50,742 nt of DNA, from positions 1-50,742 of the forward strand of contig JAFWSH010000019.1 in the NCBI GenBank assembly GCA_017519405.1, in the 5' to 3' direction. Source of the stretch: Clostridia bacterium (GTDB lineage Bacteria; Bacillota; Clostridia; Christensenellales; Aristaeellaceae). Each line of letters opens with the position of its first letter. Positions within the stretch are counted from its first letter, which is position 1. The notes beneath the pieces were generated by a model. That model made no database searches and had not been told where the DNA came from. It saw only the letters and a list, made by a program, of their open reading frames with translations. The position numbers and the translations under genes are program-made. Below are positions 9,485 to 47,247 of this stretch, piece after piece.

Positions 9485-9491
9485 GACCCCC

Positions 9492-10490: not shown

Positions 10491-10497
10491 AGAAGAG

Positions 10498-10543
10498 AAA
10501 AACGCCCGGCCAAACCGCGAAGAACGGTCTGCCGGGCGTTTTG
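10498..10543. terminator. Bidirectional intrinsic terminator
   Basis: The 10-bp stem AACGCCCGGC (10501-10510) / GCCGGGCGTT (10531-10540) is flanked by A-rich and T-rich tracts on either side. It sits between the converging export operon (+) and the aldo/keto reductase gene (-) and can serve both. Confidence 0.85.
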
Positions 10544-11746: not shown

Positions 11747-11766
11747 GTTGCATCTCTCCTGTCCGG

Positions 11767-27682: not shown

Positions 27683-28954
27683 TTACTGGGACACCTCCCG
27701 GCGGATGGTGGCGCCCAGGCTCCGGAGCTTCTCCTCGATGTGCTCATAGCCCCGGTCGATGTACCAGGGCTCGTAGATCTCGGTCTGGCCCCGGGCCATG
27801 AGGCCGGCCACCAGCAGGGCGGCGCCGGCCCGCAGGTCCGTCACGGTGACCGGCGCGCCGTAGAGCTCCGGCACCCCGGTGATCAGCGCCGTGCGCTGCT
27901 CGATGACGGTGATGTTGGCCCCCATGCGGTTCAGCTCGTCCACATGGCGGAAGCGGGACTCGAAGATGGTCTCCTCCACCCGGCTGGTGCCAGGGACGGT
28001 GGTGAGCAGGGCGCACATGGGCTGCTGCAGGTCGGTGGGGAAGCCGGGGTAGACCTGGGTGGTGACCTTCACACTGCGCTGGGGGCCGGTGGAGCGGACG
28101 CGGATGCTGTCGCCGGTGGCGGTGACCATCATCCCCATCTCCAGCAGCTTCACCGAGAGGGCGTCCATGTGGATGGGAATGCAGTCGTGGACGGTGACGT
28201 CTCCGTGGGTGGCGGCGGCGGCGATCATCAGCGTGCCGGTCTCGATCTGGTCCGGGATCACCTGGTAGACCGTGCCGTGGAGGCGGGGGTGGCCGGTGAT
28301 GCGGATCACGTCGGTGCCCGCGCCCCGGATGGTGGCCCCCATGCTGTTGAGGAAGTTGGCCAGGTCCACGATGTGGGGCTCCTTGGCGGCGTTGATGAGG
28401 GTGGTCTGTCCCTCTGCCTTGCAGGCCGCCAGCATCACGTTGATGGTGCCGCCCACGGTGGCCATGTCAAAGCTGATGACATTGCCCACGAGGCGGTCTG
28501 CCTCGGCCTGCACCATGCCGCTGCGCTCCTCCACCTCCGCCCCCAGGGCCCGGAAGCCCTTCAGGTGCTGGTCGATGGGCCGCTGGCCGATGCGGCATCC
28601 GCCGGGGGTGGAGACGTGGGCCTTGCCGCGGCGCCCCAGCAGCGCCCCGATGAAGTAGTAGGAGGCCCGGAGCCGCTGGGCGTCCTCATAGCCCACGGTG
28701 TAGCCGTCCGCGTGCCGGGGATCCACCCGCATCTGGGCGCCCGGCTGGTAGTCCACCTCCGCCCCCAGGGAGCGGAGAATGTCCACCAGGGCGTGTACAT
28801 CGTCGATATCGGGCAGGTTTTCGATGACGCAGGGTTCATCGGACAGCAGGGTGGCGGGGATCAGCGCCACGGAGGCGTTCTTGCCTCCGCTGACACGCAC
28901 TTCCCCCTGCAGCGGCTGACCGCCGGTGATCAGCATACGTTCCTTGCCTGACAT
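27683..28954 (-). CDS. murA: UDP-N-acetylglucosamine 1-carboxyvinyltransferase
   Basis: 423 residues. It transfers enolpyruvate from PEP to UDP-GlcNAc, the first committed step of peptidoglycan synthesis in the cytoplasm. The active-site Cys120 (PGGCRIGQRPID) is the fosfomycin target. Lys25-Asn26 of the GGKNA motif are present. SRFRHVDELNRMGANI and the closing EKLRSLGA are typical. Firmicutes often have two MurA copies; whether this is murA or murZ cannot be told. The ATG follows GGGAGGAATACC. It begins 34 bp after the PIG-L-NAGPA gene and is probably expressed from the promoter at 31403-31431. Confidence 0.96.
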   Translation of the reverse strand: MSGKERMLITGGQPLQGEVRVSGGKNASVALIPATLLSDEPCVIENLPDIDDVHALVDILRSLGAEVDYQPGAQMRVDPRHADGYTVGYEDAQRLRASYYFIGALLGRRGKAHVSTPGGCRIGQRPIDQHLKGFRALGAEVEERSGMVQAEADRLVGNVISFDMATVGGTINVMLAACKAEGQTTLINAAKEPHIVDLANFLNSMGATIRGAGTDVIRITGHPRLHGTVYQVIPDQIETGTLMIAAAATHGDVTVHDCIPIHMDALSVKLLEMGMMVTATGDSIRVRSTGPQRSVKVTTQVYPGFPTDLQQPMCALLTTVPGTSRVEETIFESRFRHVDELNRMGANITVIEQRTALITGVPELYGAPVTVTDLRAGAALLVAGLMARGQTEIYEPWYIDRGYEHIEEKLRSLGATIRREVSQ

Positions 28955-28988: not shown

Positions 28989-31298
28989 TCAGGGTTCCAT
29001 CTGGTAGGTGCCCACCTGGGACGAGGTGCCGAAGGCCAGGCACTCCGCCTGGGCCCGGCCGTTGGGGTCCGACTTCACCACCTGGTTCAGCTGCTGCCCC
29101 ATGAAGCAGAACACGGCTGTCTGGCCGCCGTCCAGGTTCACGGCCAGCTGGCAGCCCCGGTCCTTGAGAAGCTGGGCCAGGTACACCATCTGGACGCCCT
29201 TGGAGCGGGCCAGCCGACCCTCGCACAGGACGGCCACATAGTGCCCGGGCTCCACCATGCCGAAGGCATAGCGGGGGTTGTAGCTCTTGTTGGCGTTGGG
29301 CACATAGTCGGTGAACTCCCCGTCCCGGATCAGGCAGGGGCCGAAGCAGTACACGTCGTAGGCGCCGGCGGCCACATAGTCCTTTGCCGACAGCTCCGTG
29401 TTGGGGTGGCTCTCCAGGTGGCCGTCCGGGAAGAAGGCCAGGGTCTCGTAGTTGGGCATGGTGGGGGGATTCTTCCGGGGATCATCGAAGAAGATCTCCC
29501 CGCCCCGGACAATGATGCCGGTGGGGTAGGGCTGCTTGATGCGGTAGGTGTAGTAGTCCGTGCTGGTGGCGAAGACCACGCGGTTCTCCGTGGCGGTTTT
29601 TTTGATGAACTGGTGGGTGGACCTGGGCCGGTCCGGGTCCGCGAACACCGTCCGGGGCAGCTCGCCGGAGGCCACATCGCACCAGATCTCCGCCGTGAAG
29701 CAGTAGAAGGGGTGCTTCGGGTCCGGCTCCTCATAGGTGCGCTTGATGACCACCTTCAGGGTGGGGTTGATGTAGATCCACAGGCCCCGGCTCTCGCTGG
29801 ACCAGACGAACTCCCCCTCCGGCAGGTAGCCCTTGCTGTTCAGGGCCGGGATGATTCCCGCCAGGTCCGGGTCCGTCTCCACCCAGGGGGTGTCGGCTGC
29901 GTCGGCCGCCTCGGGGGCCGGGGCTTCCTCCGGCGCCGCGGGCGCTTCCATTTCCTCTTCCGCTTCTGCTTCCGCTTCCTCTTCTGCTTCTGCTTCGGCT
30001 TCGGCTTCCGTTACCGCTTCCGTCTCCTCCGCGGGGGCCGTCTCGGCCTCCACGGGCACGGCCACGGTCTCCACCACCACCTCGGGGAGCTCTTCCGGCG
30101 CTTCCGCCGCCTCCACCGGGTCCAGGTGCTCGAAGAAATCGCCGCCCTCCTCGTCCGGGCCCACCAGGCTGACGGCCAGGCCAAAGCGGGTGTTGTCATA
30201 CTCCCGGCCCGTCTCCTCCACGCTCATGCCGCTGGTGCGCTGGGTGATGTGCATGGTGCGGTAGGCGGTGTCCGCCAGCTCCAGGCCCGTCATGCCGCCG
30301 AAGCCCGCCAGGGGCCGGGACCAGTCAAAGACGGAGGCGTTCTCCTTCCACAGGTGGAGATAGAGCTTGCTGCCCGCCCAGGTGCCCCATTGGGCGGCGG
30401 ACTCGGGCCAGCAGGACGCGTCCCCGGTGAGGGGGAACACGTTCAGCACGGCGTGGGAGAGCACCTGGTGCATGGGATGGCCGTACTCCCCGTCGATGTC
30501 CTGGGTGACCACCACCCGGGGCTTCACCTGCCGCAGGACCTCCGCCACCCAGGCCTGGACCTTCTCCTCGCCCCCCAGGGCGCTGTACTGTTTGGTCAGG
30601 TTCTTCTGGAAGCTGTCCCGGAAGGGGCCGATCACCGGGTAGTGCCGCACCCCCAGGTACCACAGGCCGTTGAGCAGCTCCGAGTGGCGGGTGGTGTTGG
30701 AGGCGGTGAGGTAGGCCACGGCCACGCTCCGGCCCTGGTCCACGGCGGTGGGAATGCCGCCGGCGAAGAAGATCAGCTCATCGTCCGGGTGGGTGGAGAA
30801 GAAGAGAATGTCCGCCCCCTCCAGGGTGGGCTCCCAGCGCTGCACCCAGTCCGGCACGTCCCCCGCCCCGAAGACAAAGATCTCGTTGAAGCCCAGCTGC
30901 TGCCGTTCGTTGGAGGTGATGTAGATCCGCACCCCGGAGGTCCCCTCCGGGAACTCATAGAAAGCGTGGAAATAGCCGTTCCCCTGGTACACCGTGGTCC
31001 AGCTGCTGCCGCTGCCGGTCTGCACCTCGTAGGCGTCGGGCAGGTATTTGAAGCACAGGTAGACGCTGTGGATCTTCTGCCCCCCGGGGGCGGTGATGGT
31101 CAGGTAGTTGTGCCGGGCCTCCTTCGTCTCCCAGTAGGTGGTGTACTTGCCGTCGGTCATCTGGGTGTACTTGAAGATGGTGCCGGAGGACTTCAGCTTG
31201 CACTGACGGGTAATCTCCGGCGCCTCCTCTCCGGCGGCGGATGCCAGCAGCAGGGTCAGCAGCAGAATCAGCAGGAAGCCTGGCAGGCGTTTGTTCAT
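28989..31298 (-). CDS. Secreted PIG-L deacetylase fused to phosphodiester-glycosidase (NAGPA) domain
   Basis: 769 residues. Signal peptide (about 1-22); an F5/8- or carbohydrate-binding-like beta domain (about 28-148); a PIG-L-type zinc N-acetyl-sugar deacetylase domain (about 160-400) with H170-P-D-D-E174 and the third ligand region EYGHPMH (His274, His277). Then comes a Glu/Ala linker of about 80 residues, and a NAGPA domain (about 490-769) with N721-L-D-G-G725. NAGPA-type enzymes cleave GlcNAc-1-phosphodiester bonds; PIG-L enzymes remove the N-acetyl group of GlcNAc-type sugars. The first 415 residues match the separate protein at 40267-41496 (both end GPDE-x-GGDF-x-EH). The C-terminal part matches 42621-43619 and 43677-44756 more distantly. 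Substrate unknown; a wall glycopolymer is likely. Confidence 0.88.
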   Translation of the reverse strand: MNKRLPGFLLILLLTLLLASAAGEEAPEITRQCKLKSSGTIFKYTQMTDGKYTTYWETKEARHNYLTITAPGGQKIHSVYLCFKYLPDAYEVQTGSGSSWTTVYQGNGYFHAFYEFPEGTSGVRIYITSNERQQLGFNEIFVFGAGDVPDWVQRWEPTLEGADILFFSTHPDDELIFFAGGIPTAVDQGRSVAVAYLTASNTTRHSELLNGLWYLGVRHYPVIGPFRDSFQKNLTKQYSALGGEEKVQAWVAEVLRQVKPRVVVTQDIDGEYGHPMHQVLSHAVLNVFPLTGDASCWPESAAQWGTWAGSKLYLHLWKENASVFDWSRPLAGFGGMTGLELADTAYRTMHITQRTSGMSVEETGREYDNTRFGLAVSLVGPDEEGGDFFEHLDPVEAAEAPEELPEVVVETVAVPVEAETAPAEETEAVTEAEAEAEAEEEAEAEAEEEMEAPAAPEEAPAPEAADAADTPWVETDPDLAGIIPALNSKGYLPEGEFVWSSESRGLWIYINPTLKVVIKRTYEEPDPKHPFYCFTAEIWCDVASGELPRTVFADPDRPRSTHQFIKKTATENRVVFATSTDYYTYRIKQPYPTGIIVRGGEIFFDDPRKNPPTMPNYETLAFFPDGHLESHPNTELSAKDYVAAGAYDVYCFGPCLIRDGEFTDYVPNANKSYNPRYAFGMVEPGHYVAVLCEGRLARSKGVQMVYLAQLLKDRGCQLAVNLDGGQTAVFCFMGQQLNQVVKSDPNGRAQAECLAFGTSSQVGTYQMEP

Positions 31299-35974: not shown

Positions 35975-37900
35975 TTACTTGTTGTCGCTGGCGGTGGTGG
36001 TGACGGGGGTGGCCTCCGCGTCGGGGGCGGCCTCCTCGGCGGCGCCCTCCGCAGCAGGCTCCTCGGCGGCGTCCTCCGCGGTCTCTGCGGCGGCGGGCGT
36101 CTCCTCAGCGGCGGTCTCCGCAGCGGGGGCCTCGGCCTCCTCCGCGGCGGTCTCCTCCTGGACGGGGGTTTCCTCCGCGGCGGTGCCGTTCTTCCGGGCC
36201 TCGCACAGGGCGATCTTCTCCTCCGCGTCGGCGTAGTCCCCGGCCTTGGTGTAGTTCTCGATGGCGGCGTCCCACTTCTCCGTGGCCATGTAGCGCTCCG
36301 CCTGGGCGTAGTAGATGCTCTTGATCTGCTCCTCGCTGTCCCCGAAGCCGTCCGCCTTGCTGAAGGCGGCGAAGGCCCCGATCTCGTCCCCGTCCGCCAG
36401 GAGCTTCAGACCCTTCTGGTAGTAGGGCTCCAGCACCCGCTCGGCGGCGTCGGCGTAGTCCCCGGCCTTCGCAAAGGCGGCGCTGGCCTCGTCCCACTTG
36501 CCCTCGCCCATCAGGGCCACGCCCTGGCGGTAGGAGACCCCGGCGATCTGAACCGCGGCGTCGGAGTAGTCCCCCAGGGCGGCGTACTGGGCCACGGCGC
36601 CCTCATAGTCCCCGGCGGCCTCCAGGCTCTGGGCCTTGCGGTAGAGGGCCTCCTGGGCCATGCGCTGGGAATCCTGATAGTTGTTGAGGGCCAGGAAGGC
36701 CTCCCGGGCCTCGTCATAGCTGCCCTCGCCCAGGAGGGTCACGGCCTCGGCATAGGCCTTCTGGTAGGCGGCCGTTTTCTCCGTATCCCCGGCCAGGGCA
36801 TAGAGCTCACAGGCCCGGGCCAAGTCACCCGCAGCCTCCGCCTCGGCGGCCAGCTTGCCATAGCACAGCTTCAGGGGCTCTGCGGCGGGGGCGTATTCCC
36901 CCAGGGCGGACAGCAGCTCCACGGCGCCGGCGTAGTCCCCGGCGTCCACCAGGGCCATGCCCCGGGCCAGGGTGCAGTCCTTCAGCCTGTCGGCGGCCTC
37001 CGCCACATCGTTCTCCGCCAGCAGGGCGAAGAGGGGCTCCGCGCTGTCCAGCCGGCCGGCGGTGAGGGCCTCGTCCGCCAGGTCCAGGGTCTGCTGCTTC
37101 ATCTTGTTCTCATCGGCGGCATAGGTCAGGGAGAGCAGATTGCCGAAGGCCTCCGCCAGCTCCTCCGACCAGGGCTCGGCCCGGTAGACCTCCGCCGTGG
37201 CGGCGAAGAGGGCGTCCAGCTTGCGGTCCTCCAGGGCCCCCAGGCGCAGGTCCGCGTCCCGGAACACCGGGATGGCGCTGTAGGCGGTGTCCGCCGAGGC
37301 ATAGTCCGCGTCCGCCTCCAGGGCCATGGCGCTGTAGTAGGCGGCCTGCAGGGCGGCGTCGTTGAAATCATCCAGGGCCGTGAAGGCGGTGGCGGCGGTG
37401 GCATAGTCGCCATTCTTCGCCAGCACCATGGCCCGGGCGTACATCCGGTAGCGGCTGGCGTCCTCATAGCCCTCCAGGGCGGCGAAGGCGTCGGCGGCCT
37501 CGGCATACTTGCCGTCCATCAGCAGCAGCTTGGCGGCCGCATAGTCCGCCGCCAGGCCGTTCACCCGGGCGTCGAAGGCGCGGCGGGCGCTGTCCTTGAA
37601 ATCCCCCAGGGCGGCAAAGGCGGTCTGGGCGGCGGCGTAATCGCCGGCAGCCTCGGCATTCAGGGCGTCGATATAGGCCGTCTGGGAGGCGGCGTCCTCA
37701 TAGGTGCCCAGGGCGGCGAAGGCCTCCCGGGCCTCTGCCGTCTTGCCCCCGGCCAGGAGCGCGGCGGCCTTGGCATAGCGGTCAGCATCGGTCTCCTGGA
37801 CCTCCGCCGCCGGGGCGGCCGGCTGGGCACAGGCGCTCAGCAGAAAAACCCCCAGGACCAGCAGGGCGAGAAGAGAGAGCAGTTTTCTGTTTTTCAGCAT
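35975..37900 (-). CDS. Lipoprotein with 13 TPR-like repeats
   Basis: 641 residues from the ATG at 37900 (GGAGGG 6 nt upstream). A lipobox LLSAC (Cys24) marks a membrane-anchored lipoprotein. From about residue 45 to 560 I count 13 helical repeats of the form G-D-Y-x-x-A-x-x-x-F-x-A-L-G-D-Y-x-D-A, with irregular spacers of about 15-25 residues. The last 75 residues are an Ala/Glu/Pro/Thr-rich stretch. The repeats are TPR- or Sel1-like and probably hold partners at the outer membrane face; nothing indicates catalysis. It is a single-gene unit with its own promoter (37959-37987) and terminator. Confidence 0.87.
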   Translation of the reverse strand: MLKNRKLLSLLALLVLGVFLLSACAQPAAPAAEVQETDADRYAKAAALLAGGKTAEAREAFAALGTYEDAASQTAYIDALNAEAAGDYAAAQTAFAALGDFKDSARRAFDARVNGLAADYAAAKLLLMDGKYAEAADAFAALEGYEDASRYRMYARAMVLAKNGDYATAATAFTALDDFNDAALQAAYYSAMALEADADYASADTAYSAIPVFRDADLRLGALEDRKLDALFAATAEVYRAEPWSEELAEAFGNLLSLTYAADENKMKQQTLDLADEALTAGRLDSAEPLFALLAENDVAEAADRLKDCTLARGMALVDAGDYAGAVELLSALGEYAPAAEPLKLCYGKLAAEAEAAGDLARACELYALAGDTEKTAAYQKAYAEAVTLLGEGSYDEAREAFLALNNYQDSQRMAQEALYRKAQSLEAAGDYEGAVAQYAALGDYSDAAVQIAGVSYRQGVALMGEGKWDEASAAFAKAGDYADAAERVLEPYYQKGLKLLADGDEIGAFAAFSKADGFGDSEEQIKSIYYAQAERYMATEKWDAAIENYTKAGDYADAEEKIALCEARKNGTAAEETPVQEETAAEEAEAPAAETAAEETPAAAETAEDAAEEPAAEGAAEEAAPDAEATPVTTTASDNK

Positions 37901-37958
37901 GGGAAACCCTCCAGTCTGACCATTGGTTCTATTGGCCTGTCTGAAACAGCCTGGGATG

Positions 37959-37987
37959 ATTATACCAAAGCCCCGGCGGATGTGCAA
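37959..37987 (-). promoter_or_regulatory. Promoter of the TPR-like lipoprotein gene
   Basis: On the minus strand TTGCAC (37987-37982), a 17-bp spacer and TATAAT (37964-37959) with TGG directly before the -10, so it is also extended. Confidence 0.7.
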
Positions 37988-38137
37988 CCCGGGCGGGAGG
38001 GATGCCCAACGGCCCCAAGGTGCCCCGGCGCCCCCCCAATCCCCCACCGGTGGTGCAATGGACGGGGAGTTGAACACAAAAGATGAGCAGATGGAAGGAA
38101 AAGTTTAATGGAAACGTCATGGAATTGTAACAAATAA

Positions 38138-38344: not shown

Positions 38345-40099
38345 TCAGGCCTTGTCGTCGCTGTTTTCCGTGCGGCGATGGCGGCGGACCGGACCGGCCT
38401 GGGCGCCGTCATGCTCCGGATCCCCGGCGGCCGGCGGCTCCTCTGCCTCCTCCGGCTCCTCGCCGTCGGGGGTGCCGGGATCGCTGTCCCTGCCGCGGCT
38501 CTCCGCCTCGTAGTCCCGCAGGCCGCTGAGCTGCAGGTGATCCACCGCGCTCATGGAGCGGACGCCCTTCACCGTGCGGCCGACGAGGCCGATGACGATG
38601 AGCAGCGCGCCGATGGCCACCGGGATCAGCAGGGCGTAGCCCACGGTCCGGAGGGTGCCGGCGGTCTTGGTGTAGTCCTCCGGCAGGTCATCCTTCTCCG
38701 GGATGGGCTGCAGCACGGGGGCCGGCGGGGTGACGATGGGCACCTCCGTGGGCACCGGGGTGGGAGCCGCATAGCGGATGTACACCGTGTTGCCCGGGAA
38801 GGTCTGGGTTTCGCCCAGCTGGTTCTTCACCCGGGCAGAGAACTGGTAGGTGCCGGCCATGGACACGGCGATGGTGCGGGTGAACTCCCGGGTCTCCCCG
38901 GGCTCAATCTGGGGGAAGGTGTAGAAGGTCATGCCGCCGGCCACCACGGACACGTCCTTCAGCGCCGCGCCGGAGGTGTTGGTCACGGACACGGTGAAGG
39001 CCACATCCCCGGGCAGCTGGTGGACGGACTCCTCCGCCGCGGTGGTGTTCACGGTGAGGTTCACCACCTCCGTGGGCTCGATGGCGGTGACCGTGATGCG
39101 GTCGGTGGCGGTGTTCAGGTCCAGGCCGCTCTCGCTCTGGCCGGCCACGGTGAACTGGTAGTCGGTGGTGACGGTGATGGGCACTTCCTTCTCCAGCTTC
39201 ACGGTGCCGCCGGCGGGTACGTTCACGTCCGTGAACACGTCCCCCAGGGTGGGCTCGGAGACGGTGATGCCGTTGTAGTCCTCCTTGCCGCTGTTCTTGA
39301 GGGTGACGGTGAGCTTCACATTGTCGCCCGTGAGGCCGCCCTTCTTGTCGGCGGAGACGCTGGCGCTCAGCTTCATCTCGCCGTAGCGGATGGTGGCGGC
39401 CTCCTTGTTGACGGTGGCCTTCTTGCCGCCGGCGCTGTAGGTGATCTGGGCGTTGGAGGTCAGGTCCCGGGTGCCCATCTTGACCGTGAAGGTGTAGCTC
39501 TCCTTCTCCCCGGCCGCCACCTTGTCGATGGTGCCGGCTTTGTTGGAGACGGACTTGTTCTCGGTGATCTTCACATCGGTGATGTCCACCGTGCCGGTGT
39601 TGATCACCTCATAGGTGACGGAGACTTCCTGTCCCTTGCCGGCGGTGGTGGGGGTGATGGTGCGGTTGACCTCCACCGACGGGACGGCCTGCTCATAGAT
39701 GAGGGTCTTGCCGAAACGCTTGGTCTTGCGCACCAGCTGGCCCTCGTCGTCCACCACATAGTATTTGAGGGAGTAGTACAGGGCGCCGGCTTCCAGCTGG
39801 GACTGGGTGACCCGCCACTGGCCCGTCCAGGTCTTGGAGGCCCCCATGGTCATCTCCGACTCGCCGAACTCCTCGATCAGCTTCTCGCCGGGATCGTAGA
39901 GCGACACGGGGCCGGGGGTGTCATCCTCGCCGATGTTGGTGACCCGGATGTTCACCGTGATGGTGGCCGGCTCGGAAAACCGGTTGCGGCTCAGGTCCAT
40001 CTTCACATCCAGGAAATCGGTGCTCTCAGCGCCGGCACAGCAAACAAACGCTGCGACCACCAGCAATGCGGCGATCATCACAATCAGTCTGCGTTTCAT
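38345..40099 (-). CDS. Surface protein with CARDB/NEW3-like repeats and C-terminal membrane anchor
   Basis: 584 residues from the ATG at 40099 (GGAGG 6 nt upstream; an ATG 6 nt earlier abuts the ribosome site). The signal peptide is about 1-25. The main part holds about four Ig-like beta repeats of about 100 residues, each with a pattern such as VTYEVINTGTVDITDVKI, VKLTVTLKNSGKEDYNGI and VAFTVSVTNTSGAALKDV. This is the COG1361/CARDB type, known as cell-adhesion or scaffold modules. A membrane helix (about 500-520, YALLIPVAIGALLIVIGLVG) and a charged, Pro/Glu-rich cytoplasmic tail of about 60 residues follow. No enzyme domain. It is a monocistronic unit with promoter 40186-40215. Confidence 0.83.
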   Translation of the reverse strand: MKRRLIVMIAALLVVAAFVCCAGAESTDFLDVKMDLSRNRFSEPATITVNIRVTNIGEDDTPGPVSLYDPGEKLIEEFGESEMTMGASKTWTGQWRVTQSQLEAGALYYSLKYYVVDDEGQLVRKTKRFGKTLIYEQAVPSVEVNRTITPTTAGKGQEVSVTYEVINTGTVDITDVKITENKSVSNKAGTIDKVAAGEKESYTFTVKMGTRDLTSNAQITYSAGGKKATVNKEAATIRYGEMKLSASVSADKKGGLTGDNVKLTVTLKNSGKEDYNGITVSEPTLGDVFTDVNVPAGGTVKLEKEVPITVTTDYQFTVAGQSESGLDLNTATDRITVTAIEPTEVVNLTVNTTAAEESVHQLPGDVAFTVSVTNTSGAALKDVSVVAGGMTFYTFPQIEPGETREFTRTIAVSMAGTYQFSARVKNQLGETQTFPGNTVYIRYAAPTPVPTEVPIVTPPAPVLQPIPEKDDLPEDYTKTAGTLRTVGYALLIPVAIGALLIVIGLVGRTVKGVRSMSAVDHLQLSGLRDYEAESRGRDSDPGTPDGEEPEEAEEPPAAGDPEHDGAQAGPVRRHRRTENSDDKA

Positions 40100-40185
40100 C
40101 TTCATCCTCCGGACAGACAGGCTGTCCTTCCTCCTTCCGCGGCCTGCTCCGCACAAGGGCACGGCAAATAGGCGATACCATTGTC

Positions 40186-40215
40186 ATTTTACTCGCATTG
40201 ACTGCATTCTGTCAA
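40186..40215 (-). promoter_or_regulatory. Promoter of the CARDB-like gene
   Basis: On the minus strand TTGACA (40215-40210), an 18-bp spacer and TAAAAT (40191-40186), 87 bp before the ATG. It starts about 50 bp after the stop of the PIG-L gene; only a weak AAAAA/TTTTT pairing lies between, not a convincing terminator. Confidence 0.8.
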
Positions 40216-40266: not shown

Positions 40267-41496
40267 TTACTCTTCCCCGGGCCAGGGGTCAATGTGCTCC
40301 ATGAAATCCCCGCCGGCCTCGTCGGGCCCCACCATGGTCTTCTCCAGGCCGAAGCGCCGGTTGGAGTACTTCTCGCCGGTGCCGGTGACGGACATCTGGG
40401 TGCCCTGCTGGGAGACGTGGCAGGTGTAGGCGCGGACGGCGGCCTCCAGGCCGGTGATCCCCCCCAGGGAATCGAGGGGCACGTCCCAGTCCATGGTGAT
40501 GGGGTTGGTTTTCCCCAGGTGGAGGTAGAGCTTCTGCACCTGCCAGGTGCCGTATTGCTCCGCGGAATCGGGGTAGCGGGCGGGGTCTGCGGCCCGGTCC
40601 CAGGCCAGGGTGGCGGCGGCGGCGGTGACCCGGTGCTGATAGTGGCCATACTCGCCGTACTTGTCGTGGGTGACCACCACCAGGGGCTTGTAGCGGCGGT
40701 AGAGGCCGGTGACCCAGCCGATGACCTTCTTCTGGCCCCCCAGGGCGGAATACTCCGCGGCCATGGTCTTTTTGTGCCGGTCCGGGAAGGGGCCGATGAC
40801 GGGATAGTGCCGCACCCCCATGGACCACAGGCCGTCCAGCAGCTCATGGTTCCGGCGGATGCCGCAGCCGGTGAGGTAGGCCACCACCACCTGGTATCCC
40901 CGCTCCGTGTCGTAGGTGGGGATGCCGCCGCCGAAGAAGATCAGCTCGTCGTCCGCGTGGGAGGAGAGGAAGAGGATGTCCGCCCGCTCCCGGGTGGGGA
41001 GCCACTGCTGGGCGCCCGGGGGGAGGGCGCCGGCGCCGTAGAGCCGCAGCTCCGGGATGGCCACCTTCACCTTCTTCTCCTCCTGCACCAGGAAGCGCAC
41101 CGCGACGGCGGGGGCCTCCAGGGGCACATACACATGGAGGAAGCGGTTGTCGCCGGTGTAGACCGTCTCCCACTCCTCTCCCGCCGGCACCTGGAGGTAC
41201 CAGCGTTCCGGGATCCGGTCGAAGGTCAGGTAGACCCCGCCGATGGGCTCCTCCGCCGTCTCCCCGCTGCGGGCCGTGAGCCAGACGGTCTTGGCCGTGC
41301 TGCTCCAGGCGGTGGTGTAGCGGTTGTCCCGGACCCGGGCGGCGGATTTCACCTGCTCGGTGGTGGAGAAGCTCAGGCTGCAGGCGGCGGTGATGTCCGG
41401 GGCCTCCCGGGCCGGGGCCTCCTCCGCCCGGGAGAGGCAGGGGCAGAGCAGCAGGAGGAGCAGAAGCAGGGGAAGGAATCTCAGCCGGTTATGCAT
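40267..41496 (-). CDS. Secreted PIG-L-family deacetylase
   Basis: 409 residues. Signal peptide (about 1-25), a beta-rich carbohydrate-binding-like domain (about 35-158) and a PIG-L domain (about 165-400). It has H180-A-D-D-E184 in place of the usual HPDDE, and the third ligand region EYGHYQHRV. Family enzymes remove the N-acetyl group from GlcNAc-containing glycolipids, mycothiol or antibiotic precursors using zinc. The whole protein aligns with residues 1-415 of the fusion at 28989-31298 but lacks the NAGPA half. It is the last gene of the capA-NAGPA-NAGPA-lgt-like operon; the two NAGPA proteins upstream supply the missing half in trans. Substrate unknown. Confidence 0.85.
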   Translation of the reverse strand: MHNRLRFLPLLLLLLLLCPCLSRAEEAPAREAPDITAACSLSFSTTEQVKSAARVRDNRYTTAWSSTAKTVWLTARSGETAEEPIGGVYLTFDRIPERWYLQVPAGEEWETVYTGDNRFLHVYVPLEAPAVAVRFLVQEEKKVKVAIPELRLYGAGALPPGAQQWLPTRERADILFLSSHADDELIFFGGGIPTYDTERGYQVVVAYLTGCGIRRNHELLDGLWSMGVRHYPVIGPFPDRHKKTMAAEYSALGGQKKVIGWVTGLYRRYKPLVVVTHDKYGEYGHYQHRVTAAAATLAWDRAADPARYPDSAEQYGTWQVQKLYLHLGKTNPITMDWDVPLDSLGGITGLEAAVRAYTCHVSQQGTQMSVTGTGEKYSNRRFGLEKTMVGPDEAGGDFMEHIDPWPGEE

Positions 41497-41517
41497 GGGT
41501 TTCTCCTTGTCCGCGGC

Positions 41518-42603
41518 TCAGGCATCCCCGGCGGCCGGGGCGCGCTCCCGCAGGTTCACGGCCAGGACGATGCCCATCACCGCCAGGTGGAAGGCCATGA
41601 GGCAGAAGAGCAGGGCGGCGTCGTCCTCAAAGCGGCCCAGAATGTGCACAAGCAGCAGCATGCAGCCCGTGAAGCCCTGCAGTCCCGCCGCCATCCGGCC
41701 CTCCTGCCCCCGCAGGGCCAGGAGCAGCAGGGCGGCCAGCAGGACCGCCAGCAGGGTGGAGAGGTGCAGCCAGAGGTTGTACTGGGGCTTGTCAAAGACG
41801 AACTCGGTGAAGATTACCCCCAGGGTGGCGGCGGCCAGGGTGCCGAAGCTCAGCGCCCAGGTCTGCCAGGGGGCCCGGTGGCGGATCAGCAGGCAGATGA
41901 GGGCGCCGATGAGGGTGGCCATGGCGGCGATCTGGCTGAAGCGGATGAAGGTGGTGATCCGGACAAAATCGTCGCAGCGCAGCTGCTCCAGGAAGATCTG
42001 GCTGGTGCCCAGGAGCCCCAGGAACACCACGGTCTGCTGGCCGGGGAGGCTGCGGCGCCGCCGCAGGAGCAGCACCGCCAGGATCACCAGGGCGGCGGCC
42101 GCCTCCCAGCACCACACCGCCTGGCTCCACTCCACATAGTCCTCCATCTCATAGGAGACAAAGGCGTAGGGGAAGAAGCACAGCTCCTCCTCCATCACCA
42201 CGCTGCCCGCTCCCTGGCCGGTGAAGTACTCCCCCAGCCGGCCGAAGAAGATGGCGGCCGCGGCGCCGGGGGCCAGGGCGTCCAGCACCTCCGCCGCCTG
42301 CGCCCGCATCAGCCGGGCGGAGAGGAAGGCGCCCAGAAGGCCGCCCAGGACGGAGCCGTAGAGGGTGTAGCCCCCCTGCCAGGGCATCAGGAAGGACAGC
42401 AGCAGGGGCTGGGTCAGATACTCCGTGTTGAAGACACACCAGAAGGCGTGGCCGCCCAGGAGGGCCAGCAGGATGGTGAGGGGCAGGGCGGGCAGGGCGC
42501 GGCGCTTGGGCAGCGTCAGCAGCACCCCCGCCAGGGCGCCGGCGAAAATCGTCAGACCGTAGGGGGTCACCTGGAAGGGACCCAGGACAAAGAGCGGTGT
42601 CAT
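41518..42603 (-). CDS. Divergent Lgt-like polytopic membrane protein
   Basis: 361 residues from the ATG at 42603. A TTG at 42624 would overlap the preceding stop and is less likely. About 9-10 membrane helices. It follows the prolipoprotein diacylglyceryl transferase plan: GGYTLYGSVLGGLLG for the usual GG-x-x-x-x-GG-L-I-G, G121-R-L-G-E-Y-F-T-G-Q130 for GRIGNFxNxE, and SQIFLEQLR (201-209) for RxxxExxR. Arg122, Glu206 and Arg209 are kept, but the Asn (to Glu125), the Glu (to Gln130) and the first Arg of the last motif (to Gln202) are changed. It may therefore have another acceptor or be inactive. Lgt normally transfers diacylglycerol from phosphatidylglycerol to lipobox cysteines. It sits inside the surface-glycan operon. 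Confidence 0.75.
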   Translation of the reverse strand: MTPLFVLGPFQVTPYGLTIFAGALAGVLLTLPKRRALPALPLTILLALLGGHAFWCVFNTEYLTQPLLLSFLMPWQGGYTLYGSVLGGLLGAFLSARLMRAQAAEVLDALAPGAAAAIFFGRLGEYFTGQGAGSVVMEEELCFFPYAFVSYEMEDYVEWSQAVWCWEAAAALVILAVLLLRRRRSLPGQQTVVFLGLLGTSQIFLEQLRCDDFVRITTFIRFSQIAAMATLIGALICLLIRHRAPWQTWALSFGTLAAATLGVIFTEFVFDKPQYNLWLHLSTLLAVLLAALLLLALRGQEGRMAAGLQGFTGCMLLLVHILGRFEDDAALLFCLMAFHLAVMGIVLAVNLRERAPAAGDA

Positions 42604-42620
42604 CTCAGCATTCCCCCGAA

Positions 42621-43619
42621 TCAAGGATTGGGCTCGGCGGTGGCAAAGTAGACGATGTCGGCGATGGTGCGCCGCTTGTTGGGGCGGCCCTTGTTCTGGA
42701 TGCGCTCCGTGCCCAGCACCAGCCAGGTGGAGGAGCCGCCGTCCAGGTTGTAGGCCTGGATGGCCCCCATGTCACAGGCCAGCTGGGCGATCTCGGGGAT
42801 GGTGAAGCCGGCGCCCTTCACCTGCTCGGGGCCCTCGGAGGTGATGACCAGATAGCTCAGGGGGCCCATCTGGCACAGCACGTTGCGCTGGGCCAGCTTC
42901 TGGCCGCCGATGTGGCGGAAGATCCAGTCGTCCTGCTCGTCCTTGAGGTTGAAGCGGGTCAGCTCCCCGTCGATCACCAGGCCCGGGCCGAAGACGAAGC
43001 TGTGCATGATGTCATCCCCGAAGGCGCCCACCTGCTCCACCGTGGCGTGGCGGATGATGTGGAAATCCCCCGCCCGGTCGATGACCAGGGAGTCGTAGAC
43101 GCCGCAGTCCCGCTTGCGCAGCAGCTTGCCGTTGCGCCAGACCACCCCACGGCCGCCCTTCTCCTTGCCCACGAAAAAGTCGCCGCTGATGGCCAGGACG
43201 GACTTCTCCCGCTCCGCGATGCTGGTGGCGTAGGCCTCCTGGGCGGAGGGGTAGGGACGGAAGGTGGCGGTGCGCAGCTGGGTGGGATCCGCGATCTGAA
43301 TCCAGGTAAAGAGCACCTTGGTCTTCCCCAGGGTCCGCTCTTCCACCCGGACGGAGAGGGTGCTGTCCACATAGCCGCCGTCGTCGGGGAGAAAGGCGTC
43401 GGCCCGGGGGCCGTAGAGGTTCTTGCCCTCCAGGGGGATGGGATCGGGGGAGGGGTTTTCCAGCGTCACGGGCTGGTAGACGGGCAGCTCGTCCAGGGAA
43501 TAGACCCGCTGGACCTCCTCCGCCTCCGCCCCGGGCACCGCGGCGGGCACCAGGAAGGGGATCAGGAGCAGCAGCAGCACCAGGGGAATCAGCCAGGCAA
43601 GCAGCTTTCCGGTTTTCAC
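42621..43619 (-). CDS. Secreted phosphodiester glycosidase-like (NAGPA-domain) protein
   Basis: 332 residues from a GTG at 43619 (GGAGG 7 nt upstream). One N-terminal hydrophobic segment (about 6-29), either signal peptide or anchor, then a short Pro-rich linker and a NAGPA domain (about 85-330). It has VLAISGDFF, FVFGPGLVIDGEL and the hallmark NLDGGSSTW near the C-terminus. NAGPA is the 'uncovering enzyme' family, which cleaves GlcNAc-1-P-6-mannose phosphodiesters in eukaryotes; bacterial members are thought to act on wall polymers. It is the tandem paralogue of 43677-44756. Substrate not known. It ends directly before the Lgt-like gene. Confidence 0.85.
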   Translation of the reverse strand: MKTGKLLAWLIPLVLLLLLIPFLVPAAVPGAEAEEVQRVYSLDELPVYQPVTLENPSPDPIPLEGKNLYGPRADAFLPDDGGYVDSTLSVRVEERTLGKTKVLFTWIQIADPTQLRTATFRPYPSAQEAYATSIAEREKSVLAISGDFFVGKEKGGRGVVWRNGKLLRKRDCGVYDSLVIDRAGDFHIIRHATVEQVGAFGDDIMHSFVFGPGLVIDGELTRFNLKDEQDDWIFRHIGGQKLAQRNVLCQMGPLSYLVITSEGPEQVKGAGFTIPEIAQLACDMGAIQAYNLDGGSSTWLVLGTERIQNKGRPNKRRTIADIVYFATAEPNP

Positions 43620-43676
43620 ACAGAAGCCTCCTTCAATAAAGTGGGCAAAATGGGCAATGCGGTCAGGGGGCGGGGT

Positions 43677-44756
43677 TCATTCCGGGAGATCCCCGGCGGC
43701 GTCGGGCTCGGCGGTGACGAAGTAGAGCATGTCCCCCACCAGCCGCTTTTTGTGGTTCCGGTCCCGGGTGTTGACGCGCTTCTCCCCCAGCACCAGCCAG
43801 GCGGAGGAGCCGCCGTCCAGGTTGAAGGCCTGGACAGCCCCCATGTCGTAGGCCAGCTGGGCCATCTCGTTGATTTTGAAGCCGGCGCCGCTCACCTGCT
43901 CGGGGCCCTCCGAGACGATGACCAGATAGCTCAGGGTGTCCATCTGGCACAGCACGCAGCGCTGGGTGGCCTTGTTGCCGCCGCTGTGGCGGATGGCCCA
44001 CCGGTCCAGCTCGTTGTCCTCATAGACCTGCACCAGCTCCCCGTCGATCACCAGCCCCGGCCCGAAGACGAAGCTCTGGAGAATGTGCCCCTCCCAGGGG
44101 GCCAGGTCCTCCACGGCGGCGTGGCGCACAATGTGCAGATCCCCCGCGTCGTCGATGACCAGGGCATCGTAGACCCCGAAGTCCTTCTCCCGCAGCAGCT
44201 TGCCGTTGCGGTAGATAACGCCCCGGGTGACCTTCTCTTCGCTCATGAACCAGTCGGCGTTGAGGGCCAGCACGGCCCTCTCCCGCTTGGCCATGGCGTC
44301 CACCAGGCCGATGGCCTTGGAGGGGAAGGGCCGGTATGTGGTGGTGCGCAGCTGGGAGGGGTCGGCGATGGTGACCCAGGCGAAGAGCACCTTGGTCTTC
44401 CCCAGGGTGCGCGTGTCGATTTTCACGGAGAGGGTGCTGTCCACATAGCCGCCGTTGTCGGGCAGGAAGGCGCCGGGGTGGGGGGCGTAGGGCGTTTTCC
44501 CGTCCAGAGGGAGGGGCTCCGGCGTCAGGTTCTCCAGATACACCGGCTCATAGACGGGCAGGTCCGCCGGGGTATAGCAGCGGGGGACGCCGTCGTCGAA
44601 GGAGGCCGGCGCCGTGTCGGCGGGGACCTCCGCCGGGGCTGCCTCCGGCTCCTCCCCCCGCACGCCGGCCGGGGAAAGGCAGGAGATGGCGGCCAGCAGC
44701 AGGGCCAGGACCAGGGCGCGGAACCGGACCGGGGTGGGGTGCTTCCTCACAGGCAT
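43677..44756 (-). CDS. Secreted phosphodiester glycosidase-like (NAGPA-domain) protein, paralogue
   Basis: 359 residues from the ATG at 44756; a GTG 6 nt downstream has better spacing from GGAGG and is a real alternative. The signal peptide (about 1-33) is followed by an acidic linker (about 35-60) and the NAGPA domain (about 110-350). It aligns with the protein at 42621-43619 along its length: both have the G-G-Y-V-D-S-T-L-S-V segment, V-L-F-x-W, F-V-F-G-P-G-L-V-I-D-G-E-L, G-P-E-Q-V-x-G-A-G-F, and NLDGGSS. Two tandem copies suggest distinct substrates or a heterodimer. The gene follows capA by 30 bp. Confidence 0.85.
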   Translation of the reverse strand: MPVRKHPTPVRFRALVLALLLAAISCLSPAGVRGEEPEAAPAEVPADTAPASFDDGVPRCYTPADLPVYEPVYLENLTPEPLPLDGKTPYAPHPGAFLPDNGGYVDSTLSVKIDTRTLGKTKVLFAWVTIADPSQLRTTTYRPFPSKAIGLVDAMAKRERAVLALNADWFMSEEKVTRGVIYRNGKLLREKDFGVYDALVIDDAGDLHIVRHAAVEDLAPWEGHILQSFVFGPGLVIDGELVQVYEDNELDRWAIRHSGGNKATQRCVLCQMDTLSYLVIVSEGPEQVSGAGFKINEMAQLAYDMGAVQAFNLDGGSSAWLVLGEKRVNTRDRNHKKRLVGDMLYFVTAEPDAAGDLPE

Positions 44757-44786
44757 TCGCCTCCTTCGGGCTGCCGGGGGGCCGGC

Positions 44787-46040
44787 TCAGGGACGGCCGG
44801 TGCTCAGGTTGCCGTCCTCCAGCACATAGACGGTGCCGGTGGTGAGAAAATCCTGGGGCAGGTTGTCAAAGCCGTTGACCCGCTTTTTCGACACCAGCCG
44901 GCCGTAGCAGGCCCGGATCTCCTCCTCCGCCTGCAGCAGCTCCGGCCGGTATTCCCCGTATTTGTGGTGGGTCTTCATGGGCACCACGTGCAGGCTCTCC
45001 AGGGTGGGATTCCCCGCCCCGTCCAGGCGGTAGCGCAGCTGGAAGATGCCGGTGTAGGGGTTCATGTCGGCGATGGTGCCGAAGATGAAGTTGCCGGTGG
45101 AGAACATGATGGGCTTGCCCTGGTAGAAGCACACGGGCTGGAGGACGTGGGGGTGGTGCCCCCAGATCATGTCCGCCCCGGCCTCGATGACCTTTTTGGC
45201 GAAGGTGTACTGGCCCGCGTTGGGCTCGGGGTATTTCTTCTCCCGGCCCCAGTGCAGGCTGACGATCACCAGCTGGCAGCCCTCGTCCCGCAGGCGGGTG
45301 ATCCGGTCCCGGATCCGCTGCAGGTCCGCATTCTGGGGGTAGGACAGGCCCACCATGCCAATCTTGCAGCCCTTCACCGTCCGGGTGGTCACCACGTCCC
45401 ACTCCGGGTGCTCCTTGCGGAACAGGGAGCCGAAATTCTGGATGCCCTGCTCCGCCAGGGCGGCCAGGGATTCCGTATAGCCCTGGGCGCCGTAGTCCAT
45501 GCAGTGGTTGTTGACGGTGTTCACCACCTCCACGCTGCCCTCCGTCAGGGCCCGGGCGAATTCGGGCCGGCCGATCAGGGGGAAGGCGGTCTGCTTGTTG
45601 CGGCCCCGCTCATAGGTGGTCAGCACCACCTCCAGGTTGGCAAAGGAGCAGTCGTCGGCGGACAGGAAGGGCAGGGCGGTGGAGAAGGGCCAGGCGGTGC
45701 CCTGCTCCAGGATCACCTTGGTGAGGGAGAGGGGCGTGTTCCGGGAGCCGTAGGCATCCCCCAGGGAGCAGTCCCCCACAAAGGAGAGCAGCAGGGTGCC
45801 GTTGTCCACGGGCGCCGGCTCCGCCGCCGGGGCAGGGACCTCCTCCAGGGGCGGGATCTCCTCCGGAGCGGCCTCCGGATCGGCTTCCTCCGGGGCGGCT
45901 TCCGGATCGGCGGCCTCAGGGGCGGCGGTGGCCATGCCGGGGTTGGTGATGGTGAGGAAGGAAGTCTCCCCCAGGGCCGGGACAGACAGGCCCAGGGCGA
46001 GGCAGAGCGCAAGGACCAGGCAAAGACGTTTTTTCATCAT
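44787..46040 (-). CDS. CapA/PgsA-family secreted metallophosphatase-like protein
   Basis: 417 residues. Signal peptide (about 1-24), an acidic Ala/Pro/Glu-rich linker (about 40-80), and the CapA domain (about 83-400). The metal-binding motifs of the calcineurin-like fold are GDCSLGD, ANLEVVL, NTVNNHCMDYG, SLHWGREKKYP and GHHPHVLQP. Family members include PgsA/CapA of the poly-gamma-glutamate capsule apparatus and many of unknown role. No capB/capC genes are here, so poly-gamma-glutamate synthesis is not implied. It is the first gene of the operon that continues with two NAGPA proteins, an Lgt-like protein and a PIG-L deacetylase; promoter at 46112-46140. Confidence 0.9.
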   Translation of the reverse strand: MMKKRLCLVLALCLALGLSVPALGETSFLTITNPGMATAAPEAADPEAAPEEADPEAAPEEIPPLEEVPAPAAEPAPVDNGTLLLSFVGDCSLGDAYGSRNTPLSLTKVILEQGTAWPFSTALPFLSADDCSFANLEVVLTTYERGRNKQTAFPLIGRPEFARALTEGSVEVVNTVNNHCMDYGAQGYTESLAALAEQGIQNFGSLFRKEHPEWDVVTTRTVKGCKIGMVGLSYPQNADLQRIRDRITRLRDEGCQLVIVSLHWGREKKYPEPNAGQYTFAKKVIEAGADMIWGHHPHVLQPVCFYQGKPIMFSTGNFIFGTIADMNPYTGIFQLRYRLDGAGNPTLESLHVVPMKTHHKYGEYRPELLQAEEEIRACYGRLVSKKRVNGFDNLPQDFLTTGTVYVLEDGNLSTGRP

Positions 46041-46111
46041 GTTCAGCTGCTCCTCACAAGGCGGCGCGGCTACCCGCGGCCCGCGGATTCAGTCATACAA
46101 AACCAGTGTAC

Positions 46112-46140
46112 AGTATAGATCGAAGCCCCCTGAATGTCAA
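46112..46140 (-). promoter_or_regulatory. Promoter of the capA-NAGPA-NAGPA-lgt-PIG-L operon
   Basis: On the minus strand TTGACA (46140-46135), a 17-bp spacer and TATACT (46117-46112), about 70 bp before the capA ATG. No terminator was seen between the five genes (gaps of 17-57 bp). Confidence 0.87.
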
Positions 46141-46174: not shown

Positions 46175-46199
46175 AGAGAAAAAACGGCCGAAGCCGTTT
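46175..46199 (-). terminator. Intrinsic terminator after the MBL-fold gene
   Basis: On the minus strand AAACGGC-TTCG-GCCGTTT (46199-46182) followed by TTTCTC. The hairpin has a stable UUCG loop and begins inside the stop codon. Confidence 0.9.
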
Positions 46200-47176
46200 C
46201 AGGGGGCAGGGGAGGGCCGGGGGGGCAGCAGGGTCCCCAGGGGGAAGGTGCCGGGTTCCACCCCGGCGGCGTACCAGATGCGGCTGCCGTCGGAGGTCAC
46301 CAGCACGTGGCCGTCCTGGTAGCACAGGAACACGGCGTCGGGGTTGGCTCCGGCCTTCCGGGCCACGGTCCGGGCGCCGCCCCGCTCCACCCCCGGAATC
46401 AGCACCAGCCGGGGGTCCATGAAGCCGTAGGTGCGCACCGGCACCTCGTGGGCCCAGATGCCGTGGTGGGGGAAGAGCAGGATGTCCAGCTGGCGGATCT
46501 GGTCGCCGTAGTACTTTTCCCGGCCGGCCCAGATGTAGTCGCCGGTGACGCCGATGGAGATGTCCCCGTAGCGGATCACCAGGTTCATGGAGTCCATGTT
46601 CCGGTTGCCCCACACCGGGTCCCGCCAGGGGGGACCGAAGCAGAAGATCTCCAGGGGGCCCAGGGTGAGGGAGGTGCCCTCCGTCAGCTGCCGGTAGGTG
46701 CCCACGGGCAGGGGGTCCAGGGGCGGGTGCAGCTTCGGGGAGACGCCGTAGACCACGGTGTGCTCCGTGCCGTATTTCTCCGCCAGGATGTCCACGTTGT
46801 AGCAGTGGTCGTTGTGCCAGTGGGTGACGAAGTGGGCGTCCACGTGGTCGATGCCCGAGGCCTCCAGATAGTCCATCAGCGGGCGGTTGATGTGGCGGGC
46901 GGAGATGTCGTCCAGGGTGTCGGAGCCGCAGTCGATGAGCACCACCAGGTCCCCCACCGTGAGCATCCAGGCGGCGCCGGTCTGGATGTTGATCTGGTGG
47001 AGCCGCAGCAGCTCGTTGAGGGGGGTGACGGCCACCTCAGCCGTGGGGACGGGGGCCTCCGCCGCCTCTCCCCGGGCGGCCGGGAGGGAGGACATCAGCA
47101 GGCAGAGGGCAAGAAAAAAGGCGACCCAGGCGCGGAGCAGCGCCCCTGCGGATTTCCCGGACCTTGCAGCATACAT
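46199..47176 (-). CDS. Secreted metallo-beta-lactamase-fold hydrolase (ComEC-like)
   Basis: 325 residues from the ATG at 47176 (GGGGGGAG before it). A hydrophobic signal segment (about 12-35, AWVAFFLALCLLMSSL) with cleavage near ARGEAAE. The MBL domain (about 60-300) has VTHWHNDHCYN for the HxHxDH metal motif, VTGDYIW and LFPHHG for further ligands. It resembles the extracellular domain of the competence protein ComEC and related phosphodiesterases, but without its membrane channel. It may hydrolyse a phosphodiester or lactone outside the cell; the substrate is unknown. It has its own promoter (47219-47247) and terminator, next to the capA operon. Confidence 0.85.
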   Translation of the reverse strand: MYAARSGKSAGALLRAWVAFFLALCLLMSSLPAARGEAAEAPVPTAEVAVTPLNELLRLHQINIQTGAAWMLTVGDLVVLIDCGSDTLDDISARHINRPLMDYLEASGIDHVDAHFVTHWHNDHCYNVDILAEKYGTEHTVVYGVSPKLHPPLDPLPVGTYRQLTEGTSLTLGPLEIFCFGPPWRDPVWGNRNMDSMNLVIRYGDISIGVTGDYIWAGREKYYGDQIRQLDILLFPHHGIWAHEVPVRTYGFMDPRLVLIPGVERGGARTVARKAGANPDAVFLCYQDGHVLVTSDGSRIWYAAGVEPGTFPLGTLLPPRPSPAP

Positions 47177-47218
47177 GAAAGCTCCCCCCTTCTGACGGAC
47201 GGACAAAACCCTGGGGCC

Positions 47219-47247
47219 AAAATAAACCATCGGGGCGGGTTTGTCAA
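47219..47247 (-). promoter_or_regulatory. Promoter of the MBL-fold gene
   Basis: On the minus strand TTGACA (47247-47242), a 17-bp spacer and TATTTT (47224-47219), 42 bp before the ATG at 47176. It is divergent to the fba promoter. Confidence 0.75.

Follow-up and report, generated by a model that had tools for sequence, protein, structure and literature searches.

The prolipoprotein diacylglyceryl transferase Lgt (PDB 5azb/5azc) is the closest described relative of the protein considered here. In Escherichia coli this enzyme requires Y26, H103, R143, N146, G154 and R239 (PMC13251419), and each of the replacements R239A, E, H, K and Q is non-complementing (PMC4728403). Deviant homologues have been reported in other phyla, with cysteine in place of N146 or, in some groups, without R143 and R239 (PMC13251419), and as such are not new. 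The window analysed here, a stretch of 50,742 nucleotides from a bacterium of the family Aristaeellaceae (Clostridia; contig JAFWSH010000019.1), carries five minus-strand open reading frames (ORFs) in the order CapA, NAGPA1, NAGPA2, LgtL and PIG-L. Judged from gene order and predicted proteins, the conserved core of this cluster is the NAGPA–LgtL pair, and LgtL belongs to an apparent group of Lgt paralogues with a rebuilt active site, in which two residues essential in E. coli have been exchanged. By the same evidence, PIG-L is a recurrent third partner of the pair and CapA a looser cluster member. The putative operon may be read as an extracytoplasmic surface-glycan editing module with the NAGPA–LgtL pair as its core, a reading to which we give an even chance and whose chemistry we infer from the protein families.

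LgtL and its pairing with NAGPA proteins

The pair is represented in the window by two genes:

42621..43619, minus strand: NAGPA2, pair partner directly upstream of LgtL, with a hydrophobic N-terminal segment ending FLVPAA (PF09992)
41518..42603, minus strand: LgtL, predicted Lgt-fold membrane protein with E125/Q202 at the positions of E. coli N146/R239 and a C-terminal extension with EFxxDK (PF01790, model)

LgtL matches PF01790 with 86.7 bits (cut-off 24.9), and its score against the NCBIfam lgt equivalog TIGR00544, 53.4 bits, lies far below the cut-off of 118.9. The predicted model of the protein (predicted local distance difference test score, pLDDT, 83) found E. coli Lgt 5azb as the sole Foldseek match with an E value no higher than 0.001 in a search of 350,542 chains (E value 2.9e-6; template modelling (TM) score 0.63 by target). 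In a profile alignment to 5azb, the LgtL residues Y15, Y82, R122, E125, G133 and Q202 align to E. coli Y26, H103, R143, N146, G154 and R239, and E206 and R209 stand at the positions of E243 and R246. The window protein retains the equivalents of Y26, R143, G154, E243 and R246; at the H103 position it has tyrosine, as do all 17 canonical Lgt genes of the survey.

The survey started from a search with LgtL in 150 genomes of the window's family, which gave matches in 147, often several per genome. Sixty loci were fetched, partly by rank (one was skipped and taken later) and for the rest by hand from lower ranks; 22 further loci came from named genomes, i.e. metagenome-assembled Clostridia, many of them from ruminant gut and one labelled Christensenellaceae, and 21 of these were counted. 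The main count comprises the window, L033-L092 and L093-L113, in which 78 distinct genes were retained out of 85 Lgt-family genes. These same loci supplied the hidden Markov models used in the survey. A gene was assigned to the E or N class by its residue at the N146 position alone, and the R239 position and the neighbours were read separately.

At the N146 position, 17 genes have asparagine, 60 glutamate and one glutamine. The R239 position follows this division: arginine is present in 17/17 N genes, and among the E genes 58/60 have glutamine and 2/60 serine. The remaining site is largely retained in the E class (equivalents of R143 in 60/60, G154 in 57/60, E243 in 56/60, R246 in 58/60 and Y26 in 43/60), and the C-terminal EFxxDK motif is conserved likewise (E267 60/60, F268 58/60, K272 52/60).

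The neighbourhoods of the two classes differ. A NAGPA gene lies within 3 kb of 54/60 E genes versus 0/17 N genes, and in 51/60 it shares their strand at a distance below 400 bp; in this count L106, situated at a contig end, was entered as a miss, and NAGPA1 of the window was not counted as paired. Within the same 3 kb, E genes are accompanied by CapA in 10/60, PIG-L in 5/60 (a sixth, L077, at 3.08 kb) and an MBL-fold gene in 1/60, and each of these three families is found near 0/17 canonical N genes. A second set, L215-L229, fetched later, gave NAGPA within 3 kb of 12/12 E genes versus 0/3 N genes, with Q, R and T at the R239 position of ten, one and one of the E genes, respectively. One gene of this set (L224) has neither N nor E at the N146 position, and a NAGPA gene adjoins it as well. 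The Lgt-family genes of four loci fetched for their PIG-L genes, and standing outside the pair count (L140, L141, L148, L152), are all E-class with NAGPA adjacent. Tandem double NAGPA–LgtL pairs occur in three loci (L060, L067, L071); the second LgtL in each has diverged strongly, and those of L067 and L071 have no R246 equivalent.

A tree of 127 rows, obtained by a quick search, places 63 E rows with a single Q row and 62 N rows with a single C row on opposite sides of a branch with SH-aLRT support of 100. Among the 29 best-scoring loci of a class-level sample outside the window's family, 28 were N and one C, and among 21 loci of other families in an order-level sample all were N; the short stretches read around them held no E gene and no NAGPA. 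Both samples are the best-scoring loci among many more matches and have five genomes in common. The locus L114 is of the N class as well, with no E-class gene and no NAGPA match in its stretch. Among the loci read, and at this sampling, LgtL thus appears to be limited to the window's own family.

LgtL might be a second prolipoprotein diacylglyceryl transferase, placed by chance among common genes for secreted proteins. The PF01790 match, the retained equivalents of five Lgt residues in the window protein and the existence of homologues in other bacteria with N146 replaced by cysteine, or without R143 and R239 (PMC13251419), agree with such a view. It is nevertheless highly improbable, given the loss of the N146 and R239 equivalents, the TIGR00544 score of 53.4 against 118.9 bits, a canonical Lgt elsewhere in the window's genome (L073), 64 paired NAGPA proteins without a classical lipobox by the pattern used (some with a cysteine nearby) and the contrast in NAGPA neighbourhood (54/60 E versus 0/17 N genes). 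A role of LgtL as the housekeeping Lgt was dropped on account of the same canonical copy.

Of 52 paired NAGPA domains, 50 to 52 have retained each of D147, R162, R245 and D293-G-G, as have 21/21 domains fused to PIG-L (see below); nothing in the motifs of NAGPA and PIG-L points to a dead enzyme. The N-termini of the NAGPA partners are of interest for the function of LgtL. In many of these paired proteins the hydrophobic N-terminal stretch closes with an L-V-P-S-A-like sequence, at the place of the lipobox cysteine. The pattern [LIVFM][VIALTF]PS is present in 34/63 paired NAGPA, compared with 1/11 unpaired, 0/21 fused, 0/28 PIG-L and 1/9 CapA proteins, and its lone unpaired carrier (L057) lies 631 bp from an LgtL gene. 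Relaxing the motif costs specificity (paired 50/63, unpaired 4/11, fused 4/21, PIG-L 7/28, CapA 4/9). These counts omit weakly hydrophobic N-termini (three paired, nine unpaired, five CapA); the paired rows number 64 in the lipobox count and 63 in the motif count, where copies were removed more strictly. In 689 pairs of NAGPA proteins with mature domains less than 35% identical, the P column agrees in 57% and the S column in 43%, with 4 to 39% for the other N-terminal alignment columns 4 to 43 and 52% for a proline past the likely cleavage site. The mean agreement over the mature domain is 32%; of its columns, 19% equal or exceed the P column in conservation and 26% the S column.

NAGPA as an ordinary lipoprotein was rejected, the strict lipobox pattern being unmatched in both counts of paired NAGPA (52 and 64 proteins); a cysteine at or near the lipobox place occurs in a few of them (L053, L060, L062, L140, L141). 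As Lgt acts at the end of signal peptides and the partner of LgtL has a conserved signal-peptide end, docking or a special lipidation is suggested. In the first case LgtL would hold the N-terminal helix of NAGPA, as Lgt holds lipoprotein signal peptides, and would transfer no lipid. The exchange of both N146 and R239, R239Q being non-complementing in E. coli (PMC4728403), and the conserved N-terminal island of the paired NAGPA (34/63) speak for such a docking protein. The coherence of the new site (E in 60/61 non-N genes, Q in 58/60, E267 in 60/60, K272 in 52/60), on the other hand, looks like selection for activity, the looser motif is common in the comparison proteins too, NAGPA2 of the window has VPA and not VPS, and the paired NAGPAs are of common ancestry; we regard docking without transfer as doubtful. 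In the second case LgtL would be a dedicated transferase placing diacylglyceryl on the VPS box of its partner, through the serine or otherwise, which we hold to be improbable. The serine cannot be an obligatory acceptor, because NAGPA2 of the window has VPA; a lipobox with serine for cysteine, served by a different type of enzyme, has been put forward in another case (PMC12419801). Such a transferase, if real, would amount to lipoprotein formation without cysteine, each substrate having its own enzyme, with an E/Q site in place of N146/R239.

PIG-L, further neighbours and a possible mechanism

The third partner and a related gene elsewhere in the window are encoded as follows:

40267..41496, minus strand: PIG-L, an LmbE-like deacetylase whose N-terminal domain is a CBM32-like beta-sandwich (Pfam, predicted structure)
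28989..31298, minus strand: fusion gene with N-terminal domain, PIG-L, acidic linker and NAGPA in one ORF (domain searches)
27683..28954, minus strand: murA, immediately following the fusion gene (TIGR01072, 525 bits)

The PIG-L proteins carry H180-x-D182-D183 and H288 (H180 in 49/49, D182 in 46/49, D183 in 47/49, H288 in 46/49), corresponding to the HxDD plus second histidine described as the metal motif of PIG-L/LmbE-like deacetylases in PMC4101496. In the model of the window protein, which is of low overall confidence (pLDDT 61), the catalytic part looks like that of known deacetylases and the N-terminal sandwich like CBM32 4a42 (TM score 0.57 by target). One other PIG-L copy is present in the same genome and lies in the window, at 30111-31289, 46% identical and within a longer frame. 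This is the fusion gene, about 9 kb from the five-gene cluster. A PIG-L gene is located directly upstream of murA in 6/6 sampled genomes of the genus (the window, L119, L121, L122, L127 and L135), as a fusion in five and as PIG-L alone in L135.

A PIG-L search of the family gave matches in 111/150 genomes. Two groups of loci were read, L115-L134, picked for long PIG-L frames and therefore biased, and L135-L154, mostly of high rank and without such frames. In the first group NAGPA is part of the same ORF in 18/20 loci; in L134 it lies in the following ORF, beyond an in-frame stop, and L132 shows none. Among the 20 loci of the second group there are two fusions (L138, L139), three same-strand NAGPA ORFs next door (L142, L144, L154), two rows of NAGPA, LgtL and PIG-L (L140, L141), two NAGPA–LgtL pairs about 6 kb off (L148, L152) and one NAGPA on the opposite strand (L150). 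Altogether, PIG-L–NAGPA fusions were identified in 21 genomes, the window's own included, and NAGPA, LgtL and PIG-L are contiguous in six loci (the window, L094, L099, L104, L140, L141). The fusion is the strongest genomic hint that the PIG-L and NAGPA domains may have a common substrate. Fusions of NAGPA to other surface domains are known (PMC11488536, PMC12419801). It may be added that L154 has three successive ORFs with PIG-L, NAGPA and CapA domains at 7684-11285 (plus strand), with no LgtL there.

CapA of the window matches PF09587 with 182.9 bits (cut-off 27), and its only NCBIfam match is the lasso-peptide epimerase MslH, at 59.3 bits far below the required 700. In G119, a genome of the same genus, C47 carries PIG-L, CapA, NAGPA and LgtL as a cluster with a different gene order, its LgtL belonging to a distant branch (L077, L230), and in L062 PIG-L is near another distant LgtL; these clusters suggest that the families have come together more than once. 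The window and G119:C47 are the only places among the 60 E-class genes where all four families are clustered. A neighbourhood survey thus does not bear out the proposal of an earlier note on this DNA that the five genes form one conserved unit, and the five as one conserved system were dropped. The functional link that the note assumed is supported, because NAGPA, the Lgt relative and PIG-L recur side by side in distant relatives, CapA more weakly. Its idea as a whole is supported in part: a smaller module within the set is conserved, and the exact five-gene set is not in the loci read. The NAGPA–LgtL core, the two lost essential residues of LgtL and the nearby PIG-L–NAGPA fusion were absent from that note.

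Six NAGPA domains are encoded in the window's genome. Four are clustered with a Lgt-family gene, two in the window, one on C4 and one on C26, both of the latter with E-class partners; the fifth is fused to PIG-L, and the sixth (C22) has no such partner in the 11 kb read. The genome also holds four CapA, three LCP and three PF02397 sugar-phosphate transferase genes. Among the neighbours of the surveyed pairs, LCP genes recur as cluster c11 in L042, L060, L067 and L071 (identity checked in L042 and L060), and peptidoglycan-binding domains are found in L086 and L077. A GT2-GtrA gene (cluster c17) stands beside divergent NAGPA–LgtL pairs in L074, L078, L082 and L088 (Pfam check in L074 only). The L074 protein, at 10606-11823 (minus strand) in the window's own genome, is related to polyprenyl-phosphate glycosyltransferases, all of them far below the NCBIfam cut-offs.

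These four GT2-GtrA neighbours, together with the kept equivalent of the phospholipid-side R143, would suit a system acting on polyprenyl-phosphate sugars or another lipid-linked sugar-1-phosphodiester, with LgtL as binder of the lipid phosphate and NAGPA as hydrolase or transferase for the sugar. The neighbour occurs in just 4/44 loci, however, and is absent from the window cluster, and we consider this reading unlikely.

In the preferred reading, a surface-glycan editing module, the N-terminal domain of PIG-L would bind a glycan and its deacetylase domain would strip N-acetyl groups from an amino sugar, and NAGPA would cleave or transfer a sugar-1-phosphodiester bond of the same glycan. LgtL would keep NAGPA at the membrane and handle the lipid side by means of its R143, E243 and R246 equivalents, and CapA, being metallophosphatase-like, would be accessory. 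Two bonds are candidates for NAGPA: the LCP-type linkage of a polymer to peptidoglycan through a sugar-1-phosphate, considered because LCP genes are present, and a polyprenyl-phosphate sugar, considered because of the GT2-GtrA neighbours.

Several observations weigh against the module or its chemistry. No NAGPA was found within 5 kb of five E genes lying inside contigs (L036, L040, L047, L051, L056), where the upstream ORFs read seem unrelated, so that pairing is not obligatory. In the second set 2/12 E genes are without Q at the R239 position, and the one with R has A at the R143 position. In L147 just 1.9 kb separate a PIG-L gene from a canonical Lgt gene, and CapA is near only 10/60 E-class genes. 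In the window's genome, whose assembly is about 80% complete, the sole PF00953 gene is mraY, with no TagO-type GlcNAc-1-phosphate transferase, and an LtaS-type sulfatase was not found in that same assembly. The lack of a TagO match weakens a wall-teichoic version with a classical teichoic linkage unit, and linkage via TagO was dropped as a candidate.

Layout of the five-gene cluster

The other features of the cluster and its boundaries are:

44787..46040, minus strand: CapA / PGA_cap metallophosphatase-like protein with signal peptide and acidic linker (PF09587, 9.9e-54; PDB relatives 8gq9, 8gqb)
43677..44756, minus strand: NAGPA1, predicted secreted phosphodiester-glycosidase domain, 59% identity to NAGPA2 (PF09992)
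46112..46140, minus strand: sigma-70-like promoter TTGACA-17-TATACT (11/12 consensus matches)
46181..46200, minus strand: upstream boundary, a terminator-like hairpin with T-run closing the preceding MBL gene (fold -14.7 kcal/mol)
40186..40215, minus strand: promoter-like TTGACA-18-TAAAAT before the next gene, downstream boundary (11/12 matches)

The coordinates and families of the five ORFs given in the earlier note were confirmed, all Pfam matches being above the curated cut-offs (PGA_cap 9.9e-54, NAGPA 6.6e-24 and 6.1e-22, LGT 2e-24, PIG-L 1.4e-10); no NCBIfam model reached its own cut-off against any of the five proteins. The promoter-like site it had named is present, and the secreted or membrane nature it had ascribed to the set is supported. 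The genes are separated by gaps of 30, 57, 17 and 21 bp when the ATG at 42603 is taken as the start of LgtL; an alternative TTG start at 42624 would give an overlap with NAGPA2. Promoter-like sites number five on both strands of the 10-kb region, against a mean of 1.0 in shuffles. The hairpin at 46200-46181 has a shuffle z-score of only -1.46 and was not reported by a separate promoter and terminator scan, and from PIG-L to the promoter-like site at 40215-40186 that scan listed no terminator-like site on the minus strand. The boundaries, neither of which the earlier note had named, are compatible with a single, putative operon.

Upstream, a secreted MBL-fold protein is encoded at 46199-47230 (minus strand), with its own promoter-like site at 47247-47219 and a terminator-like end; in L064 an MBL ORF lies directly upstream of a NAGPA–LgtL pair. 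Just past the operon, a large CARDB/DUF11-like repeat protein at 38345-40162 (minus strand) has a strong promoter-like site, and it is followed at 35975-38077 (minus strand) by a repeat protein with weak tetratricopeptide-repeat (TPR) matches and an apparent lipobox in its translation. ORFs similar to the latter are found near NAGPA–LgtL pairs in L052 and L070 (cluster c43). Two further candidates from the neighbourhoods were rejected: cluster comp1 (94 ORFs in 39 loci) is antisense noise, 78/94 of its members overlapping a labelled gene, and the GNAT and thymidine kinase neighbours were read as shared synteny and not as function.

Comparison with described systems

No description of a Lgt–NAGPA module was found in searches of the open-licence PMC literature, and we regard the system as a novel variant assembled from known families. 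The NAGPA proteins of the window have the PF09992 domain with the DGG motif and their secretion in common with other NAGPA/DUF2233 proteins (Slr0280, 5h3k; a DUF2233 protein, 3ohg), and differ from them in being paired with LgtL or fused to PIG-L. The human uncovering enzyme is likewise a protein of the NAGPA type. The substrates of bacterial NAGPA proteins are, to our knowledge, mostly unknown, and the LgtL–NAGPA pairing would offer a handle on them.

The window PIG-L shares its fold and the HxDD plus H metal motif with the LmbE-like/PIG-L deacetylases MshB, BshB and diacetylchitobiose deacetylase. In contrast to these enzymes, it is predicted to be secreted, has an N-terminal CBM32-like domain and is fused to NAGPA in many genomes. 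PplD, a linkage-unit de-N-acetylase, is not known to be a PIG-L relative. It offers a possible analogy of role only, acetyl removal from the linkage sugar between polymer and wall, as described for streptococci (PMC8807736). CapA has the PF09587 domain in common with CapA (PGA_cap) proteins and MslH; unlike them, it is here a looser member of a cluster.

With Lgt, finally, LgtL shares the predicted fold, the PF01790 match and, in the window protein, the equivalents of Y26, R143, G154, E243 and R246. It differs in the exchanges N146 to E and R239 to Q, in the C-terminal extension with EFxxDK, in its coupling to NAGPA and in the presence of a canonical Lgt in the same genome. The coherent exchange in the active site, the several copies per genome and the mostly NAGPA-paired occurrence suggest that the Lgt fold has been reused for work on surface glycans, and not every PF01790 match in such bacteria deserves annotation as Lgt.

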